DNA from: Nitrospira sp. | GTDB lineage: Bacteria; Nitrospirota; Nitrospiria; Nitrospirales; Nitrospiraceae | Assembly: GCA_021323395.1 (NCBI GenBank) | Contig: JAJONL010000004.1 | Coordinates: 1 to 64,000, forward strand | DNA length: 64,000 nucleotides | Direction of reading: 5' to 3' | Part shown: one piece after another, positions 2,898 to 31,607 of the stretch | How the letters are laid out: every line of letters starts with the position of its first letter | Position numbering within the stretch: position 1 is the stretch's first letter | Position numbers and translations under genes: made by a program | The notes under the pieces: generated by a model | What the model was told of the DNA's origin: nothing | What the model saw: the letters and a program-made list of their open reading frames with translations, nothing else | Database searches by the model: none

Positions 2898-5800
2898 TTA
2901 TCCTCGCACCCTTCCCACCTCGACTACCGTTGGCGCATCGCGGTCGATCGATTCTCTGCTCGTCACGGTGCGACTGACCATGCCGTCACGAAACACCACG
3001 AAGTTCGACGGCACGGCGGCGATGCGGGGACCCGGCAAAATCACTCCCGCGAGATTCAGCGGATCGGCGGCTGAAATTTTGATGTCCTGTTGACTGTCGG
3101 GCCGTTTCTTGAGCGCGCGCAGCGACTCAAGCGCGTCGGGCAACGCAAACTGCTCGCCGGTAAAACCAGATACAAAGCGGCCGCCGCGCAATTCCCCTCT
3201 CGATTCCATACGCCGGTAACAGACCAGCAGATCCCGCCAGGAGGACACCAGCGACTCGCGCAGCAGCAGGTCGCGAAACACTATCCCATACCGTTGCAAG
3301 AGTTGCCGCGCGACGCTCTCAGTAGAGCCGACAGCCGATAGCTGACAGCTCTCAGCGGGTCTCAGCAGTGACCAGCGCCCGCCCACATGGCGCGGGCGGC
3401 AGCTCCGCCCCCGTCCCTCGGCCCGTCGCCGCCGTGGATCGATGAGGGCGCGCAGATTGTCGAACCCATCGGCCGTCACCAACCCAGCCGCCACCAATTC
3501 CCATAATCCATCTTCCACCTCGGACGCCAAGAGGCGCGTAACATGCAGCAGCTCACTAAAAAAACTGGCGCCACGCTCCTGCAACCCACGCCGGACCGCT
3601 TGGGCCGAGGCGCCGAGGCGTGCGTTGATATCCACATGCTGCATCCCCTCGCCGGCGGCGGCCAGTAACGTCTCGGCATCCTCGCGAGCGAACAAACTCA
3701 CCGGCGCGACTCGAGTCGGCACGACCCGCCGCCCAGGCAGCGGAGTCAGCTCCTGCATCAAGCGAGGATGTGGGGTCAACCGGCCCCACATGACCGCTCC
3801 GCTCAAACACAGCCGATCGAGCCATTCCGGCGCATACTTGGCCAAGCGGATCCGCAAGATCTGAGACTCCCACGCCGAGGCGGCCGCCTCAAATCCACCG
3901 AGTTGCTTGATGACGTCAAGAAGTCCCGCCTCACCATGCAGGCGCGCGCCCGGCGAAGCATGTTGCCATTGAAAGAGAAACCGCATGAACTCCGCGGCCG
4001 AGACCGGCTCGATCTCCTTGCGCAGGCGACCGATCGTCAACCGGTGAATCCTGGCCAACAATCGGCGGTGACACCATTCGATCTCGTCGTTCGTCGGTCG
4101 TGAAGCGTGATTCGTAAAGCGGCCTCGCAGGAGGTGACCTTGCGATTCGAGTCTGAGGAACGTTGCCTGGAGGTCTTGTTCGGAAAGATGCAGGGTCTGC
4201 GAGAGGTCCGCGGCTGTGGTTGGCCCGATACTTTCCATCCAGCCCAAGACCATTCGATCGAGGGCTTCCTCGCGTTCCAGGGATTCGACCGGTGCCGCGG
4301 CGGAATGGTCCGGATCGATCCGGTCATCGGGAAAGAGCACCTGAACAATATGACGAAATTCAGCCGGCGCCCAACCCAGCGGTCTGCCGGCCCGCCACAG
4401 CGTCACCAGCCGACCGGCGGCTGTCAGGGCCGGCGCCCATTGTTCCCACTCCGGCCTGTGATCGCATGGCACCCATCCTAACGACAGGAGTGCATCATGG
4501 AACTCGTCGGCATCGCGCACGACCGGCCAGGATTCTTCGACGACCTGGTCGATCGCCGATTGGTCCAACGCACCCATACCCCCCGCCAAGTCAGGCGGCA
4601 GAGTGCGACGCATTTCCACGGCCCGTGCCCGGCGTTCTTCCAGCGGAGCATCATCGAGATAGGCGTAGGGATTGGCATTCAAGATTTCATGGCAAAACGC
4701 GGAGGGCATGGGCGTATCCACGGCCACACAGGTGATCGCGCCCCTGTCGATCTTCTGCAACACCGTGATGAGGCCTTCGAGATCCATCGCCTCGGTGAGG
4801 CAATCTCTGATCGTCTCCTGCGCGAGCGGATGGTCCGGTATCTGTCGCGCGGTCCGCTCCCCGTGAAAATTATCCTGGCAGGCGAGCGCGTCGGGGAAAA
4901 CCGCTGCCAACAGGTCTTCGGCTCGCATGCGCTGGATCTGCGGCGCCACCCGTTTGCCGTTAACGAAGCGTAACAATGCCAAGGCTCGCGTGGCGTTCCA
5001 ACGCCAGCGTGTCATGAACATCGGCGCCTGCAGCACGGCCTGCGTCAGCACCTCCTGCACGGTCTTGGGGTTCAGGAAGGCAAACACCGTATCGAGCGGG
5101 AAACTGTGCCGCTCTCCCAATGATAAGACGATGCCTTCGTCCGTGGCCGCCGCCTGCAACTCAAAATCGAAGGTCACGCAAAACCGCTTCCGCAAGGCCA
5201 GTCCCCAGGCCCGATTTACCCGACCGCCGAACGGCGCATGGATGACGAGTTGCATCCCGCCGCTTTCGTCGAAGAATCGTTCCGCCACAATGGTCTGCTG
5301 AGTCGGGACGGTGCCTAAGACCGCCTTGCCCGCCAATACATATTCCACGGCCTGCTGCGCCCCGCGCTGGTCGAGGCTGCATTCCTGTTTCAGCCACTGC
5401 ACCGGTGGGGCGTAGGGCGTCAGAGACGCAGGTTCGGTATCGAGACGACGATCGATATCCGCTTTGAGACGGGCGACCTCAGCCGACAAATCCGCTGTAC
5501 GGGACGGTCCCTCCCCGCGCCAAAACGGAATGGTCGGCGGAGCCCCCTGCGCATCTTCCACTCGCATCTTGCCGGTTTCGACGCCTCTGATCCGCCAGGA
5601 GGTATTGCCCAGTAAAATGATATCTCCGGCCAAACTCTCCACGGCGAAATCTTCATCCACCGACCCCACGACCGTCCCGTCCGGTTCCGCAATCACGACA
5701 TAGTTCGCCGTATCTGGAATGGCGCCGCCGGAGGTGATGGCCGCCAATCGTGCCCCGCGACGGCCCCGGATGTGATGATTGATGCGATCATGATGGAGAT

Positions 5801-24484: not shown

Positions 24485-25189
24485 TCAGCGAATATCTTGA
24501 AAGAAGATCCGAGGAAGGTAGGGAAACTTAAACTCCACATGTAGGATGATGAGCAGGACGCGCAGGAAACTTCTCCCAATACCCATCTGAAGGAACTTTC
24601 TGGCATCCGTCACAACCGGCGGAGACAGGAGCAGCGGAGTCGTCACCTGTAACAACTTTTCACAAAACACTACGTCTTCCAGGATGGGCTGGACAGGAAA
24701 TCCGCCAAGCTTCTCAAATAAGGATTTTCGCACGAACAACGCTTGATCGCCGTAAATGATACGGCTTCTGGTGCAGCGGAAGTTGTCGAGCCAGGAGATC
24801 ATCCGGAGTCGCCAGTCTGAACCAGAAAACTGGTGACGAAATCCGCCGGCCTGTATGGGGAGATCCGGTTCCATGGCATTGAGCCGGCTCAACGCCTGCG
24901 CCGGCAGCACGGTATCGGCATGGAGAAACAGCAGCCACTCGCCGCCTGCCGCGCCCGCGCCCGCGTTCATTTGCGAGGCCCGTCCTTTCGGCGCGTTGAT
25001 CAGGATGAGCGGACTGGAATCAGCGCCTTGCGGAGCGAGCAAAAATCGCCGGACCACCTCGCAGGTCCCGTCGCTGCTGCCGCCATCCACAACAATGATC
25101 TCATAGTCACCCGTTTGCGTGAGCACCTGTCTGAGTGTGTCTGGCAGCGCCCGCTCTTCGTTGTAGGCGGGAATCACCACGGAGATCAT
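24485..25189 (-). CDS. TIGR04283-type family 2 glycosyltransferase
   Basis: 234-residue GT-A glycosyltransferase. Start at ATG 25189 (MISVVIPAYNEERALPDTL), overlapping the stop codon of the broken ferritin-like gene as ATGA. Motifs: IIVVDGGSSDGT, APKGRASQMNAGA and LLFLHADTVLP, which are characteristic of the 'rSAM/selenodomain-associated transferase 2' (TIGR04283) group, annotated in databases as an arsenosugar-biosynthesis glycosyltransferase. The acceptor is unknown here. It is the last gene of a minus-strand run with a radical SAM protein and a DUF547 lipoprotein, a context that recurs with this family. Confidence 0.85.
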   Translation of the reverse strand: MISVVIPAYNEERALPDTLRQVLTQTGDYEIIVVDGGSSDGTCEVVRRFLLAPQGADSSPLILINAPKGRASQMNAGAGAAGGEWLLFLHADTVLPAQALSRLNAMEPDLPIQAGGFRHQFSGSDWRLRMISWLDNFRCTRSRIIYGDQALFVRKSLFEKLGGFPVQPILEDVVFCEKLLQVTTPLLLSPPVVTDARKFLQMGIGRSFLRVLLIILHVEFKFPYLPRIFFQDIR

Positions 25190-25715
25190 GGCAACAACCA
25201 ACTCGGAAGAAAGGTGCGAACATCAGCCGCCCAAGCCGAGGCATCCTCATCGATCGTCCCAAAAAGATCGCCGAGGGTCAGCACCATCGATTCCGTTAGA
25301 GCCAGATAGTCTTGCGTGCGCCGGCGGAGCCCATCCAACTCCGCCTTCCCCTCAGCCATCGCCTGCTGCAACAGGCGCAGCCCGAACCCATGATGGGCCT
25401 CCTCCTGACGGAGAAGAATCAGACGCAGCCGACGCCCCGATCCAGCGATTGGTTGAGAAGTCGGCGATAGGCGTCAAGGGCGGGCAGGAATGGAGAATCA
25501 CCCAGGTGACGGGGGGCGAGCCATCCGATGGCTCCGCGGAACACCATGGCATGCATCGCTTCCTGCCGGGCTTGCGTCGCCAGAAAACGCTGCGCCTTTG
25601 GGTCCGGCGCCAGGGCGGCCTGCTTGTGTGCGCAGGCATTGGCCAACTGTTCCCCATATTCGAGAAAGGCCAGCAGCCGAGCGATCGGCACCCGTTCGTC
25701 TGGAAGGATCACCAT
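25186..25715 (-). pseudogene. Broken ferritin-like domain protein
   Basis: Two ORF pieces form one disrupted ferritin-like protein. The first (MVILPDERVPIARLLAFLEYGE ... RFLATQARQEAMHAMVFRG) carries an ExxH helix and ends at SLDRGVGCV plus a stop at 25419. In the next frame the sequence continues LRLILLRQEEAHHGFGLRLLQ, the second ExxH helix, and runs to LPSWLLP. The frames meet around 25425-25455, and the linker is shorter than usual between two diiron helices, so a deletion with frame loss is likely. Function in intact relatives is probably a diiron oxidase or binding protein. It lies between DUF547 and GT2 in an operon-like run. Confidence 0.7.
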
Positions 25716-25723
25716 GTCATGAA

Positions 25724-26500
25724 TTACCAGGGTTGAGGCGACGGCCCATTCAAACTCCAATCGTACTCGAGAAATTCCACCCTATAATCGGCGGCAAACA
25801 GATCCTGTTTCAACGATGCGTCCTGGACGTACTCCCGCACGAAATTCAGCACTGATCCGGAGCGGGCGGCGAAATCCTCTGCGAACCATTTGAAGATCAT
25901 CGAGAGGGAGGCCACTTTCTTCGACCGGTCGAACCGATTACGGGATGGGTCATTGACGAACTCACTGGTGGCTCGATGCAGTTGTTGGTCCAGTTGCTGC
26001 CCCTCATACGCCCACGATTGGAGTTTCGGACAGGATGCCGAAGCACAGACGATGGCGAAATGCATCCGTGGCTCATGGAACTGGGCGATCAGGATCTCCC
26101 GTTCCAAATCATAAAGATTGACGCTCTGTCCGCCGACCTGGTACTCCCGTGCGATGAAGTACCGATACCGGCCGAACAGGGTCGCCGGTGAATAGCGATC
26201 CAAGATGCCCTTCACCGCGAACGCATTGTAGGCGTTGATCCAAAATGCCAGACGATTCTCTGCCGACAAACGATTAGGATCCATCCGATCCAGCAGAGCC
26301 AGATAGGACGAGAGCTGCCCCTGCGGATGGATGGCGGGATAGTCAACGACGCCGTCCTGAACATGCATGCGTAACAAGCCCTGCCAGTCCTCGTGGGAAA
26401 ATTGGCCTGGAGGGACCGGGTTCGCTGGACTGAAGGAGGTTGGAACGGTCGTACAACCCATGGCCACAAGGATGAGAAGGCCGATCAGAGTGCGACGCAT
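25724..26500 (-). CDS. DUF547 lipoprotein
   Basis: 258-residue exported lipoprotein. The start at 26500 (MRRTLIGLLILVAMGC) gives a signal peptide with lipobox VAMGC and has AAAGG six bases upstream; the ORF-track start at 26515 is a TTG. The DUF547 domain includes RLAFWINAYNAFAVKGIL, FAIVCASASCPKLQ and REYVQDASL. The family has a papain-like core with Cys and His (here Cys in CASASCP), but no proven enzyme activity. It sits between a radical SAM gene (upstream) and the broken ferritin-like gene (downstream), a neighbourhood common for DUF547. Confidence 0.9.
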   Translation of the reverse strand: MRRTLIGLLILVAMGCTTVPTSFSPANPVPPGQFSHEDWQGLLRMHVQDGVVDYPAIHPQGQLSSYLALLDRMDPNRLSAENRLAFWINAYNAFAVKGILDRYSPATLFGRYRYFIAREYQVGGQSVNLYDLEREILIAQFHEPRMHFAIVCASASCPKLQSWAYEGQQLDQQLHRATSEFVNDPSRNRFDRSKKVASLSMIFKWFAEDFAARSGSVLNFVREYVQDASLKQDLFAADYRVEFLEYDWSLNGPSPQPW

Positions 26501-26515
26501 CAGAGGCCTTTCCAA

Positions 26516-27514
26516 TCAGAGGGAGACGGGTGTTCGCCAAGCCGTCATCGGATGCCGCAGGACCGACCCTACCATTCGTCCATCGAGGCGGATACAGGTG
26601 GAACAATCGGAGCAGCGTTGAATTTCAGCTCGATCGAAGCGACTGAGGATCTCCGGGAAGGATGATTCAAGGAGATTCCCCACGGATGGGAATGCCAAAC
26701 AAGGCGCCACATTCCCGGATGCATCAATCGCGACACTGTAGCGTCCCGCATCGCAAGGTTCAAGCCGTCGGCCGCTGAGCCATGCCACATTGTCTTTGGT
26801 AAATTGTCGGAAGTACCCGGTGGGGATCAGGTCCTCATCCAGCAGCCGTTCGAACACGCGAACGGCTGCCGAGCGGTCGTACACCAATCCTGGATCCTCT
26901 TTGCCGTAAATCCCCACCTTCCAGTGATAGGCGCCGACGACTGGAATAAACCCTCGCGATCCGGCAAATCGCACGACCTCTGGTACGTCATCGCGATTCA
27001 CTTCGTTCACAATACAGGTGAGAAATTTCGGGAACGCATAGCGATCGAGGAGGTCAAGTCCGGACAGTACCTGCAGCAGCTGATCAGCCCCTCGAATTTG
27101 ACGATATCGAGCCCGATCAAGCGTGTCCAGGCTGATCGACAAGGGAAGGCGCAGTGAGGCAAACCTCGCCACGAGGTCCTTCGTCAGCCTCGTTCCGTTG
27201 GTAATCACACTCACATGCAATCCGAGAGAAGTCAGATCCTCCAGCACATCGACCAGGTCGCAACGCAGGAGGGGCTCTCCACCCTGGAGAAGAACAAACC
27301 GAATGCCTTCGGCGTAGAGGCGCTCAAATACCGAACGAATCTCTTTCCGGCTGAGTTCGTACCGTCCTTGGTTGAGGGGCAGATCGCAATAGCCGCAGGC
27401 TGAGTTGCAGCGCAGGGTGACCTGAAAGGTGACCAACACCGGCTTCCGTAGCAAGAGGTTTGTGAGCGGCTTGGCTCGATCGCAAATTACCGTAAACAGC
27501 TGTTTCGAAGTCAC
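26516..27514 (-). CDS. Radical SAM protein with SPASM-like C-terminus
   Basis: About 332 residues. The radical SAM motif CNSACGYC (C36, C40, C43 from the GTG start) binds the 4Fe-4S cluster used with S-adenosylmethionine. QGGEPLLR and SVITNGTRL follow as in PqqE/HpnH-like enzymes. The C-terminus holds further cysteines (EPCDAGRYSVAIDASGNVAPC, CSDCSTC) resembling a SPASM/Twitch auxiliary cluster site. I favour the GTG at 27514, with AGGGGA upstream, over the TTG at 27541. It lacks the DUF3641 region expected of ArsS, so the substrate is open; operon partners are DUF547, a ferritin-like remnant and a GT2. Confidence 0.88.
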   Translation of the reverse strand: MTSKQLFTVICDRAKPLTNLLLRKPVLVTFQVTLRCNSACGYCDLPLNQGRYELSRKEIRSVFERLYAEGIRFVLLQGGEPLLRCDLVDVLEDLTSLGLHVSVITNGTRLTKDLVARFASLRLPLSISLDTLDRARYRQIRGADQLLQVLSGLDLLDRYAFPKFLTCIVNEVNRDDVPEVVRFAGSRGFIPVVGAYHWKVGIYGKEDPGLVYDRSAAVRVFERLLDEDLIPTGYFRQFTKDNVAWLSGRRLEPCDAGRYSVAIDASGNVAPCLAFPSVGNLLESSFPEILSRFDRAEIQRCSDCSTCIRLDGRMVGSVLRHPMTAWRTPVSL

Positions 27515-27711
27515 TGAGCATCCCCTGGCGCCGATGGCCAAATTTGAACGGGACTTGTCATTTTTTCCTGTTCTCGTCGCTCTTCTTCAGCATAACGCGA
27601 TGCAACCGGCACAATCCGATCGATTCTGCATGCCTCACGCCTGCATTTCAGGCATACGGCTTGCTGAACGGTTCACCGATATCCAGCTGTCTGATCGCAA
27701 GGAGGAACGTT

Positions 27712-28119
27712 ATGAACCCGCAAGCCCAGCCTTCAATACACACAATGGCCGCCGCTATCCTGGCAGCCTTGACGTTGTTCGTCGCGCCTGCATCGGCGAA
27801 AGAGAGGTCCGCGAAGCACACGAAACAAGGGACCACTACCTCGGCGGCCGCTGCCGCCTCTTTGCTGGGATCTGTTCCGGAATCCTCTCCTTCCGCCAAG
27901 CCAGGTCAGCACGACACCAAGCCAGGGGTGGCTTGGAAGACCGTCGGGGGCACCGTCAAAACCATACAGGGGGAGACGTACCTGGTTGAAGACTATGACG
28001 GCAATCAAATGAAGGTGCGCGTCGGACAGGGCACCAAACACCTGCGAGGCAATAAGAAGGTGGGCGACACCATTCGAGCTGAAATTACCCACGGTGGCTT
28101 CGCAAACTCAATTCAATAA
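27712..28119 (+). CDS. Small exported beta-rich protein
   Basis: 135 residues with a signal peptide (TMAAAILAALTLFVAPASA), a low-complexity Lys/Thr/Ala/Ser linker and a C-terminal beta segment TVGGTVKTIQGETYLVEDYDGNQMKVRVGQGTKHL, like a small OB/SH3-type fold found in exported proteins with 'G.V..I.G..Y.V.D.xG' repeats. The start at 27712 follows AAGGAGGAACGTT, an excellent ribosome binding site; the longer ORF from 27544 is not used. Its function is unknown. A hairpin terminator follows at 28164. Confidence 0.75.
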   Translation: MNPQAQPSIHTMAAAILAALTLFVAPASAKERSAKHTKQGTTTSAAAAASLLGSVPESSPSAKPGQHDTKPGVAWKTVGGTVKTIQGETYLVEDYDGNQMKVRVGQGTKHLRGNKKVGDTIRAEITHGGFANSIQ

Positions 28120-28209: not shown

Positions 28210-28947
28210 TCAACGAGATGCCCGAACGAACACAATATCGCCGTAATAGGCCACGGCGTGCTCCTTCGTGTTGTCCGTGTCGCTCATGATCGCGACACCA
28301 TTGACCGCAGGAGGTTCCTCTCCAAAGGCCAGCCGATAATCTGCGTAGACATTTCGTTCCTCTTCGACCCAAGTACCGACGGCGTGAGGCCCGCTCTCCA
28401 CCACGATCATCTTGGCGAAGTCGGTGAACGCATTGTCTACGATCGTGCCGATCGGACTCGTGCCATCCCAAATATAGTTGAGCGCCCCGATGGGGATATT
28501 GCCGAACAATGCCTGCCCGGCCTTGTACTTGAGTTTTCTTCCAAAGCGAACCTTATCCGGCTCATAGGCGAACGTAATGTAGAGCCTTGCTGGATAGTCG
28601 TCGCCGGCTTTGCTGTTGACATCGCCCTTTCGCAGCAGGTTCTCCACCTTCCACCGCCAGCGCACGATTGGATATTCATGCAGGTCGATCGTCACGTCTT
28701 TGGTCAAACCTGAGGCGGACGCCTCGCTGACTGCCTTGACCACAAATGTGGATCCGTCCTTCACCACCTCATATTGTGTGTGTCGTTCAACCTTTTTAAA
28801 GGTCAGCGGCTTCCATCCCTCCGGCAACACGCTCCCCTCGGTCGCCGCGGAGAACCTTCCGACCTCCAACAGCATTGGTCCTTGCGCCAGACCGGCCGCC
28901 GCGGTGCCGAACAGGAACGTGAAGAGGGTAACCCAGAGAGGCGACAT
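28210..28947 (-). CDS. DUF3047 exported protein
   Basis: 245-residue protein with an N-terminal signal peptide (LWVTLFTFLFGTAAAGLAQ) and a DUF3047 domain: LLEVGRFSAATEGSVLPEGWKPL, YPIVRWRWKVENLL, DDYPARLYITFAYEPDK and ALNYIWDGTSPIG, then VVESG and WVEEERNVYADYRLAFGEEPP. The family is periplasmic and of unknown function. The ATG at 28947 (MSPLWVTLF) has GAGGGACGG upstream; the ORF-track start (TTG at 28971) overlaps the MerA-like gene. It follows that gene with eight bases between stop and start, so they are probably co-transcribed. Confidence 0.88.
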   Translation of the reverse strand: MSPLWVTLFTFLFGTAAAGLAQGPMLLEVGRFSAATEGSVLPEGWKPLTFKKVERHTQYEVVKDGSTFVVKAVSEASASGLTKDVTIDLHEYPIVRWRWKVENLLRKGDVNSKAGDDYPARLYITFAYEPDKVRFGRKLKYKAGQALFGNIPIGALNYIWDGTSPIGTIVDNAFTDFAKMIVVESGPHAVGTWVEEERNVYADYRLAFGEEPPAVNGVAIMSDTDNTKEHAVAYYGDIVFVRASR

Positions 28948-28955
28948 CCCGTCCC

Positions 28956-30509
28956 TCACCGTCTCAACCAAGCAAAAAGCCGGGTCAGCATTGTTTTAGT
29001 CCGCGCAGTAAAATGTGCTTTGCGCCAGAGGTTGACGACCTTCTTATTGACTTCCGCTTGGGTCGGATAGGGATGAATGGTGGCGGCGATGGTTTTGACG
29101 CCGGCGCCAGCTTTCATCAGAACCGAGAACTCGTTGATCATGTCCCCGGCGTGTGAGGCGACGATCGTGGCCCCGAGAATCTTATCGGTCCCCTTCTGGA
29201 TGTGGACCCGGGCAAATCCCTCCTCTTCGCCGTCAAGGATGGCTCGATCTACTTCGTCGAGTTTGTAGGTATAGGTCTCCACCTCCAGCCCCTTCTTCGT
29301 AGCCTCTGCTTCATACAGCCCGACATGGGCAACTTCCGGCTCGGTGAATGTACACCAGGGCATGATTAAGGATTCCGTGCTGGCATATCCCAGCCCAAAA
29401 GGATGCGGGAAGAGAGCATTTTGAATGACGATCTGCGCCATGGCATCCGCGGCATGGGTGAACTTGTATCGGGAACAGATGTCGCCGGCGGCATAGATGC
29501 GCGGATTGGTGGTCTGAAGCCGGTGATTGACTATAACGCCGGATTTGTCATGCTCAACTCCGACAGTCTCCAGGCCAAGTCCCTGGACGTTCGGTGTCCG
29601 CCCGACGCCTACCAGAATTTCGTCGACGACCACGTCGTGCTGCTGCGCATGCGAATTAACCGAAAGCCGCTTATCATTGGTGTTTCTCATGATCCTCAGA
29701 TCCTTCCCGCAACAGAGGAGTGTGACCCCGTCGCGGACCATGGACTGCTGGACGATCTCGGCCGCATCCTGATCTTCATTGGGCATAATGCCATGCATCG
29801 CTTCGATGAGGTACACCCGGCTCCCGAAACGGGCAAACGCCTGCGCCAACTCACATCCGATCGGTCCCGCACCGATGACGGCGATCCGAGAGGGTCGTTC
29901 AGTCAAGGAGAACACTGTTTCGTTCGTGAGATAACCGGCCTCTTCCAGCCCGGAGATGGCGGGAGCAGCGGCTCTGGCGCCGGTACAGATTGCCGCCTTC
30001 AGGAACGTCAGCGTCCGATTCCCGGCTGGTCCCTCCACCGCCACTTTATCCTGCCCGGCGAATCGTGCTTGGCCGATGTAGACATCGACACCCAGAGATT
30101 TGTACCGATGGGCAGAATCGTTACGGCTGATCCTGGCGCGTAACTTTCGCATGCGGGTCATGGCTTCGCCGAAATCGTATTTTACGCCCGACGGAATATG
30201 CAGCCCGAACTCCTCAGCATGCCGAATCTCCGCCCACGCATTGGCCGCACGAATCAGTCCCTTAGAGGGAACACAACCCACATTCAGGCAATCTCCTCCC
30301 ATGAGATGACGTTCGATAAGCGCCACCTTTGCGCCGACGCTTGCCGCAATCACCGCAGTGATCAGCCCTGCCGTGCCTGCCCCGATCACGACGATGTTGT
30401 AACGCCCGTGGGGCTCCGGATTCACCCAGGCAGAGGGATGCACGTTGGCGAGCAGTTCGCGGTTGTATTCGTCATTCGGTAGCACCAAACTCTCGACCTC
30501 GGCATTCAT
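28956..30509 (-). CDS. MerA-like FAD/NAD(P)H disulfide oxidoreductase
   Basis: 517-residue flavoprotein of the class I pyridine nucleotide-disulfide oxidoreductase family. FAD motif VVIGAGTAGLITA (43-48), redox pair GGDCLNVGCVPSK (Cys74, Cys79), NAD motif AVIGAGPIGCELAQAF, FAD-binding TTNPRIYAAGDI and the dimer motif HPYPTQAE. It resembles the 'mercuric reductase-like' enzymes that travel with TVP38/TMEM64 proteins. It lacks the N-terminal HMA domain and the C-terminal vicinal cysteines of true MerA, so mercury reduction is unlikely. The C-terminus ends TKTMLTRLFAWLRR. Substrate unknown. Confidence 0.9.
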   Translation of the reverse strand: MNAEVESLVLPNDEYNRELLANVHPSAWVNPEPHGRYNIVVIGAGTAGLITAVIAASVGAKVALIERHLMGGDCLNVGCVPSKGLIRAANAWAEIRHAEEFGLHIPSGVKYDFGEAMTRMRKLRARISRNDSAHRYKSLGVDVYIGQARFAGQDKVAVEGPAGNRTLTFLKAAICTGARAAAPAISGLEEAGYLTNETVFSLTERPSRIAVIGAGPIGCELAQAFARFGSRVYLIEAMHGIMPNEDQDAAEIVQQSMVRDGVTLLCCGKDLRIMRNTNDKRLSVNSHAQQHDVVVDEILVGVGRTPNVQGLGLETVGVEHDKSGVIVNHRLQTTNPRIYAAGDICSRYKFTHAADAMAQIVIQNALFPHPFGLGYASTESLIMPWCTFTEPEVAHVGLYEAEATKKGLEVETYTYKLDEVDRAILDGEEEGFARVHIQKGTDKILGATIVASHAGDMINEFSVLMKAGAGVKTIAATIHPYPTQAEVNKKVVNLWRKAHFTARTKTMLTRLFAWLRR

Positions 30510-30593: not shown

Positions 30594-31331
30594 TTAGACA
30601 GACCTGCCGGCGAATTTCTTATAGAGGACGGGGACCAGAGCTAAAAGCCCCAGCAGGGTAAATGCCGTCAACACATTGGCCGAGGCGATTTCCCTGATCG
30701 AATTAATCGTACCAAGCTGTCGGCCGGCATAGGCAAACACAAAACTGCCGGGAATGATACCCAGCGATGTTGCCGCCATGTAGGTCCCGACGCTGACCCT
30801 GGTCAGTCCCGACACCATATTGACCAGGAAAAATGGAAACAGCGGAATCAACCGCAGGGTCATGAGATAACTGAAGGCGTTCTTGGCAAAACCCTCTTGA
30901 ATGGGACCCAGCCGGCTCCCGAATTTCTGCTCGACCCAGTCCCTCAGAAGATACCGAGCCACTAGAAACGCCAGCGTCGCGCCGACCGTCGCGCCGACAT
31001 TGACATACAGCGTGCCCAACACGCTGCCGAACAGAAACCCTCCGGCGAGGGTCATGATCGCCCCACCTGGTAGGGACAACCCGACGACCGCGCAATACCC
31101 GATTACAAAGATAACCACAGCGCTTGAATAGTTGGCCGCCGTGAACGCGAGCAGATGGTCGCGATTGGCCTTCAGCCCATCTAGCGAGAGAAAAGCGCCA
31201 AGATCAAAGTAAAAAAATACCGCGATCCCCAGACCGACTGCCAGCCCCAACAAGAGCTTGCCGAGACCGGCATGTTTCTGCGATGTGGATGACTGTATTG
31301 ATGTGGTCATTGTATCCTGGATCGGCATCAT
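30594..31331 (-). CDS. TVP38/TMEM64 (DedA-like, VTT-domain) membrane protein
   Basis: About 245 residues, polytopic. The VTT/SNARE-associated domain is visible: LPGGAIMTLAGGFLFGSVLGTLYVNVGATVGATLAFLVARYLLRDWVEQKFG, then MTLRLIPLFPFFLVNMVSGL. DedA-superfamily proteins move lipids across membranes, and members next to flavoproteins are common in Nitrospira and cyanobacteria. The start is uncertain among 31355, 31331 and 31328; 31331 has AGGCGAG upstream. It lies 85 bases upstream of the MerA-like gene, in the same direction, so the two probably form one transcription unit. Confidence 0.9.
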   Translation of the reverse strand: MMPIQDTMTTSIQSSTSQKHAGLGKLLLGLAVGLGIAVFFYFDLGAFLSLDGLKANRDHLLAFTAANYSSAVVIFVIGYCAVVGLSLPGGAIMTLAGGFLFGSVLGTLYVNVGATVGATLAFLVARYLLRDWVEQKFGSRLGPIQEGFAKNAFSYLMTLRLIPLFPFFLVNMVSGLTRVSVGTYMAATSLGIIPGSFVFAYAGRQLGTINSIREIASANVLTAFTLLGLLALVPVLYKKFAGRSV

Positions 31332-31607
31332 GTTGTTTTCTCGCCTATGTGTCAATCTCTTCCCTCACTCCCAAAGACCACATCCGTCGCTCGAACGAAA
31401 TAGGGAAACTTACAAGAAGAGGTGCCCGTTTGCGTTACACAAGATGGTGACGGAACGAAAACCTGAGGAACCGACTTCCCCAAACGGTCGAGCAGGCGCT
31501 CCGGCTCATCTGATCTCCACCCATTCATGCCCGGGTTGCTCAAGAACTGAGTGCGTCCATCCGAAAGATCTATTGAAGCTGGGGCCTGAGAGGAGGTAAT
31601 CTCTTAA

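Follow-up and report, generated by a model that had tools for sequence, protein, structure and literature searches.

A conserved gene run for a radical SAM enzyme, a DUF547 protein, a predicted di-iron oxygenase and a glycosyltransferase in Nitrospira, separate from the arsenosugar genes

In this paper we describe a run of four genes in a 64,000-nucleotide stretch of a Nitrospira sp. genome (contig JAJONL010000004.1, our contig C81), which we call the window. The genes encode a radical S-adenosylmethionine (SAM) enzyme, a DUF547 protein, a ferritin-like di-iron protein and a GT2 glycosyltransferase of the TIGR04283 type. The explanation that we prefer, with a confidence just short of even, is that they belong to one undescribed biosynthetic or tailoring module, composed of DUF3047 and DUF547 proteins, a di-iron oxygenase resembling aldehyde-deformylating oxygenase (ADO) and AurF, and a GT2 glycosyltransferase, with or without a radical SAM enzyme of the twitch type. 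We found no paper describing this gene set in the open-access literature, which is the scope of all literature searches reported here. Numbers prefixed with L, G and C denote loci, genomes and contigs.

The four genes lie on the minus strand and are transcribed in the order radical SAM enzyme, DUF547 protein, ferritin-like protein, glycosyltransferase. The position of the run (24485-27514), first given in a first-pass annotation made from the sequence alone, is borne out by open reading frames (ORFs) and profile matches (Table 1). The spacing is operon-like, with gaps of 15 nt between the radical SAM and DUF547 genes and ~8 nt between the DUF547 and ferritin-like genes, and an ATGA overlap between the ferritin-like and glycosyltransferase genes. 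The annotation had treated these genes as a linked run, and a comparison of neighbourhoods in nearly 60 loci, plus alphaproteobacterial clusters, confirms that the run is conserved and not accidental. In ~59 loci of Nitrospirales and Nitrospinota the radical SAM, ferritin-like and glycosyltransferase genes stay together, nearly always with DUF547 next to them. Of 396 Nitrospirota genomes, 48 have the radical SAM enzyme (59-81% identity); they come from two families, the home family and a neighbour of it. DUF547 and ferritin-like genes stand beside it in all of the 30 best relative loci. A scan of named genomes gave 80 radical SAM loci, mostly from Nitrospira, with one from Nitrospinota and four from alphaproteobacterial metagenome-assembled genomes (MAGs) at 55-58% identity. 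Among the 66 strong loci, which include loci cut by contig ends, a gene on the same strand within 5 kb was found for DUF547 in 58, for the ferritin-like protein in 59, for the glycosyltransferase in 58 and for DUF3047 in 29; the flavin adenine dinucleotide (FAD)-dependent oxidoreductase and VTT-domain genes are found in fewer. We also observed Nitrospira-like radical SAM contigs assigned to MAGs of Verrucomicrobiota, Nitrosospira and Eremiobacterota (L082, L116, L137). L082 and L116 appear to be mis-binned; L137, a 214-kb contig on which the radical SAM gene stands by itself, may reflect a genuine transfer.

The same protein families also occur together in Alphaproteobacteria. Among 376 sampled alphaproteobacteria, 3 genomes carry the radical SAM enzyme and 13 the di-iron protein, with strong matches in 9 of the 13. 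In ten alphaproteobacterial AurF-like loci the glycosyltransferase gene is adjacent in 8, DUF3047 is close in 7 and DUF547 is close in 6; the gene ends often overlap and the outer neighbours differ. All three alphaproteobacterial di-iron proteins that we tested pass the AurF cut-off, one of them only just, and the protein of G400 shares 24% identity with the Nitrospira ferritin-like protein (BLAST E 8e-8). In the four MAGs that carry the radical SAM gene, it is found alone or beside DUF547 or DUF3047 genes, adjoining DUF547 in L139 and both DUF547 and DUF3047 in L141. The ferritin-glycosyltransferase pair is located elsewhere in three of these MAGs, the di-iron homologue lying directly upstream of a TIGR04283 glycosyltransferase gene, apart from the radical SAM gene, in G398, G399 and G400. 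That the genes reassort in this way is our best evidence for a single process served by these families. A search of a plasmid collection with the AurF-like protein gave only distant actinobacterial ferritin-like and ribonucleotide reductase matches.

The ferritin-like gene that the annotation had listed is present in the run, but it is not intact. The 113-aa ORF at 25419-25760 covers only its N-terminal half, the C-terminal half being in another frame, and in a DNA alignment with the closest relatives that have it intact, L083 and L079, to which it is otherwise collinear, exactly 106 nt are missing at ~25434. A profile search of the window's own genome recovered the ferritin-like protein once only, in two pieces that match profile positions 1-94 and 130-211. 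The deleted positions 95-129 include the conserved helix-3 Glu of the di-iron site, and the frame is shifted too. Barring an assembly error behind the deletion, the di-iron step has probably been lost in this genome. Most relatives have an intact gene of ~210-235 aa. In the Nitrospira MAGs L093, L117 and L118 the gene also looks shortened or frameshifted, which may be decay or assembly error.

In the intact relatives the conserved residues E22, E52-H55, E108 and E140-H143 make up an E, ExxH, E, ExxH ligand pattern, the spacing of which we take to be ADO-like. An intact relative is modelled as a helix bundle (predicted local distance difference test, pLDDT, 91) and its best matches in the PDB are ADO (template modelling score ~0.8) and R2lox. 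The intact protein is predicted from this fold and the ligand motifs to be an ADO/AurF-like di-iron oxygenase, and the helix bundle and ligand pattern of the ADO/AurF/R2lox type are found in intact relatives and not in the window copy, which is without helix 3. No Pfam family scores over its cut-off for the Nitrospira protein, and a PDB sequence search with the di-iron protein gave no useful homologue.

The radical SAM enzyme has an invariant CxxxCxxC motif (C36, C40 and C43), and the alignment of its relatives reveals four further invariant cysteines (C254, C272, C301 and C307). These four would fit a single auxiliary cluster, as is typical of twitch, or half-SPASM, domains; the SPASM match scores 29.6 bits and the protein classifies as a radical SAM enzyme with an auxiliary cluster. 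The proteins of solved structure that come closest to it in sequence are Tes, SkfB, cytosylglucuronate decarboxylase and PqqE, all related at the superfamily level. Distant homologues (28% identity) in Lachnospiraceae, Clostridiales and Elusimicrobia are located directly after UbiA-family genes (L153, L156, L157, L158), and an epimerase-like gene comes after the homologue in L153 and L157. One such UbiA-family protein scores over the decaprenyl-phosphate phosphoribosyltransferase cut-off. These neighbours hint at polyprenyl-linked sugar chemistry, which we regard as a lead only; we found no literature on decaprenyl-phosphate phosphoribosyltransferase together with radical SAM enzymes. A second radical SAM copy (63%) is found in Nitrospira MGR_bin213 (L122:3666-7457), where it overlaps a divergent TIGR04283 glycosyltransferase gene and is followed by a reductase gene, near two acyl-carrier-protein-like genes. 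This is possibly a sister cluster.

The DUF547 protein contains invariant W.NAYNA-like and CAS..CP motifs, and export signals are seen in the sequences of both DUF547 and DUF3047. The AlphaFold model of a DUF547 relative (L083:11004-11765) is confident (pLDDT 88), and a Foldseek search of the PDB with it gave no fold match (best E 0.67). Judging from the model, the DUF547 fold apparently has no solved representative. PDB sequence searches with DUF547 and DUF3047 gave no useful homologue, and we found no literature on the two families together.

The annotation had seen the run as resembling arsenosugar-type clusters, while stating that the radical SAM protein lacks the ArsS signature and that there is no ArsM in the window. 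Both of these statements hold. The window enzyme has no C-terminal DUF3641 domain, which marks ArsS (TIGR04167), while the ArsS of the same genome has DUF3641 (184.5 bits), and there is no Methyltransf_11 match on contig C81. The resemblance itself did not survive. When the genome was checked for arsM, as the annotation had proposed, ArsM and ArsS (450 bits) were found side by side on contig C197 and not on C81. Contig C179 carries a canonical TIGR04283 gene and, after it, a DUF2064 (CofC-like) gene. We also noticed a second ArsM-like methyltransferase gene ~3 kb from the first (L059:8989-9813 and 4529-5716), one of which adjoins ArsS. In a 43-row tree the operon glycosyltransferases form one clade (100/100), and the ArsS-adjacent glycosyltransferases group with the canonical DUF2064-type ones (95/91), so that the window glycosyltransferase falls outside the ArsS-adjacent group. 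Rows L102 and L119 of the tree are operon glycosyltransferases which our script had labelled 'other', yet they are placed inside the operon clade. Within the home family, at least two TIGR04283 copies are found in 46/46 genomes with a near-complete radical SAM gene versus 23/61 without it (Fisher P 4e-13, from related genomes that are not independent). ArsS is found in nearly every home-family genome, with or without this radical SAM enzyme.

It might still be asked whether the run is a variant of arsenosugar biosynthesis, in which the glycosyltransferase would add or trim the sugar of an arsenosugar and the radical SAM enzyme would stand in for ArsS. The glycosyltransferase is indeed a TIGR04283 member by its score (Table 1), and the NCBIfam label of this family is arsenosugar biosynthesis glycosyltransferase. 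But because of the tree and the genome content this name is not a guide to function here. The true ArsM-ArsS and TIGR04283-DUF2064 pairs on other contigs, the separate glycosyltransferase clade and the presence of ArsS across the family regardless of this radical SAM enzyme all argue against such a variant, as does the enzyme itself, which is without DUF3641 and is 25% identical to the ArsS of its own genome over part of the core. We therefore rejected it on genome content, the ArsS domain and the tree, and consider it very improbable. We found no literature mentioning TIGR04283. Hardly more probable is that unrelated housekeeping genes have been kept together by inherited synteny without a shared function. 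Most loci do come from one order, and the spacing of the VTT and FAD genes drifts. This explanation is already disfavoured by the Alphaproteobacteria, where clusters of the same families differ in gene order, orientation and flanks and show start/stop overlaps.

Two further explanations, both unlikely in our view and to a similar degree, concern the nature of the product. One is a pathway for a ribosomally synthesised and post-translationally modified peptide (RiPP), where the radical SAM enzyme, the di-iron protein and the glycosyltransferase would modify a ribosomal peptide, either a copper-binding peptide of the bufferin type or a cofactor resembling mycofactocin. In the Nitrospirales family f2 (L131, L126, L133, L138) the radical SAM-ferritin-glycosyltransferase block comes directly after genes for a Cys-rich precursor, a DUF692 (MNIO) maturase and DUF2063. 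A bufferin biosynthetic gene cluster (BGC), with BufA and BufB, is present in the L131-type locus, the precursor in L131:8060-12412 being of the BufA2 type (70.8 bits, cut-off 60) and its BufB scoring 343 bits (cut-off 310). In the Nitrospinota locus L121:22-4360 the block is located between DUF2063 and a DoxX/MauE-like gene, and the glycosyltransferase weakly resembles MftF. However, the glycosyltransferases of L121 and f2 form one clade, and the adjacency may be a single event. The window genome has no true MNIO/DUF692 gene, only a remote 53-bit partial match, and no BufB. True DUF692 genes are found in 5/15 home-family genomes with the radical SAM gene and 5/14 without; as DUF692 does not track the radical SAM enzyme, we rejected MNIO/bufferin as a constant partner for the home family. 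There is no precursor or RiPP recognition element gene beside the Nitrospira operon, nor are there buf genes near the alphaproteobacterial loci examined. The mycofactocin scores are far below cut-off (MftC 59 versus 265 bits, MftF 34.5 versus 280 bits), and a mycofactocin-like system was rejected for this reason. A paper on the MNIO landscape (PMC12452194) mentions neither glycosyltransferase nor ferritin nor Nitrospira in its main text. The other explanation is fatty-aldehyde, hydrocarbon or lipid-tail chemistry, in which the ADO-like protein and a Tes-like radical SAM enzyme would act on lipid tails and the glycosyltransferase would make a glycolipid. ADO is the best fold match of the di-iron protein, and tetraether synthase Tes is the best PDB sequence match of the radical SAM profile. 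Both likenesses are at the superfamily level, though (16-19% identity; core domain only), the operon has no acyl-ACP reductase, and the alphaproteobacterial di-iron proteins match AurF, which belongs to an N-oxygenase family.

Returning to the tailoring module that we prefer, its product would be glycosylated and probably linked to the envelope. It may be a small metabolite with a sugar attached, as the annotation had suggested, or just as well a lipid-linked or a peptide product. A more specific version, which we put forward tentatively and with less confidence than the module itself, is a cross-phylum pathway in which the di-iron oxygenase and the GT2 enzyme, joined by the twitch radical SAM enzyme in Nitrospirales, would build an O2-dependent glycoconjugate, with DUF547 and DUF3047 handling it beyond the inner membrane. 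The gene set, its tight linkage and recurrence across phyla, the cofactor motifs and folds, and the separation from the arsenosugar genes are observed, and from these we infer the order of steps, the envelope glycoconjugate and all substrates. The cytoplasmic GT2 enzyme would transfer a sugar to an acceptor, the ADO/AurF-like protein would oxidise the acceptor with O2, and in Nitrospirales the radical SAM enzyme could add a radical step on the sugar or the acceptor. Once the product is exported, the DUF547 lipoprotein and the DUF3047 protein, themselves exported, might act on it or together with it, and a lipid-linked intermediate may be moved by the VTT protein. Several observations weigh against this picture. 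The radical SAM enzyme is missing from most alphaproteobacterial versions, and DUF547 and DUF3047 are not always adjacent, which makes the minimal set unsure. In many loci the VTT and FAD genes have drifted off by several kb. The di-iron gene may be dispensable, since it is broken in the window and apparently also in L093, L117 and L118. The homologues that suggest a link between the radical SAM enzyme and lipid-sugar chemistry are 28% identical to it.

Across bacteria, TIGR04283 genes carry the annotation of arsenosugar enzymes, and for the whole clade of operon glycosyltransferases this name misleads. DUF547 and DUF3047 are tied to a di-iron oxygenase and a glycosyltransferase, and their function can thus be tested in culturable Alphaproteobacteria; the cross-phylum glycoconjugate pathway, if true, would be the first functional context for both families. 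The module would also connect an undescribed product with nitrite oxidisers that are uncultured, and in some loci a bufferin operon is extended by radical SAM, di-iron and glycosyltransferase genes.

The neighbouring genes are listed with the operon in Table 1. The VTT, FAD oxidoreductase and DUF3047 genes lie upstream in the same direction. The divergent secreted protein is 39-79% conserved beside the radical SAM gene in most Nitrospira loci.

Table 1. Features of the radical SAM-DUF547-ferritin-glycosyltransferase run and its neighbours, in window positions.
Feature	Position	Strand	Remarks
Radical SAM enzyme	26516..27514	-	332 aa, GTG start; Radical_SAM 80.7 bits and SPASM-type C-terminus
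DUF547 protein	25724..26500	-	99 bits, Pfam gathering cut-off 27; lipoprotein-type signal (VAMGC)
Broken ferritin-like di-iron oxygenase gene	25186..25715	-	Two halves in different frames
106-nt deletion junction in the ferritin-like gene	25430..25438	-	DNA alignment with L083 and L079
GT2 glycosyltransferase, TIGR04283-like	24485..25189	-	209 bits, curated cut-off 182; operon-specific clade; its ATG overlaps the stop codon of the ferritin-like gene
DUF3047 secreted protein	28210..28971	-	Upstream neighbour; 263 bits, Pfam gathering cut-off 27
FAD-dependent pyridine nucleotide-disulphide oxidoreductase	28956..30509	-	NF004991, 775 bits; overlaps DUF3047; frequent, looser neighbour
VTT-domain (TVP38/DedA-like) membrane protein	30594..31355	-	Frequent but looser neighbour
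Divergent secreted protein	27709..28119	+	Between the DUF3047 and radical SAM genes; no Pfam match

The run shares single parts with several known systems. Like arsenosugar biosynthesis (ArsM-ArsS with TIGR04283/TIGR04282), it combines a TIGR04283-class glycosyltransferase with a radical SAM enzyme, but the latter is of the MoaA/SPASM type without DUF3641 and the former comes from another clade. The radical SAM core resembles prokaryotic viperin (pVip; 64 bits in PADLOC), whereas the NCBIfam viperin score is 52.6 against a cut-off of 180 and no kinase partner was seen; as this match is confined to the core, a role in anti-phage defence was rejected. The mycofactocin system likewise has a radical SAM enzyme with an auxiliary cluster and an MftF-like glycosyltransferase, but MftA and MftB are absent beside the window operon, which has the di-iron, DUF547 and DUF3047 parts in addition. 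The bufferin BGC (BufA2-BufB-DUF2063) is found directly upstream of the block in some Nitrospirales and one Nitrospinota, but not beside the window operon, whose genome has no gene of BufB grade. With the ADO, AurF and R2lox oxygenases the intact Nitrospira relatives share the helix-bundle fold and the E/ExxH/E/ExxH ligands, and they differ from them in sequence (16-19% identity) and in being genetically linked to a glycosyltransferase.

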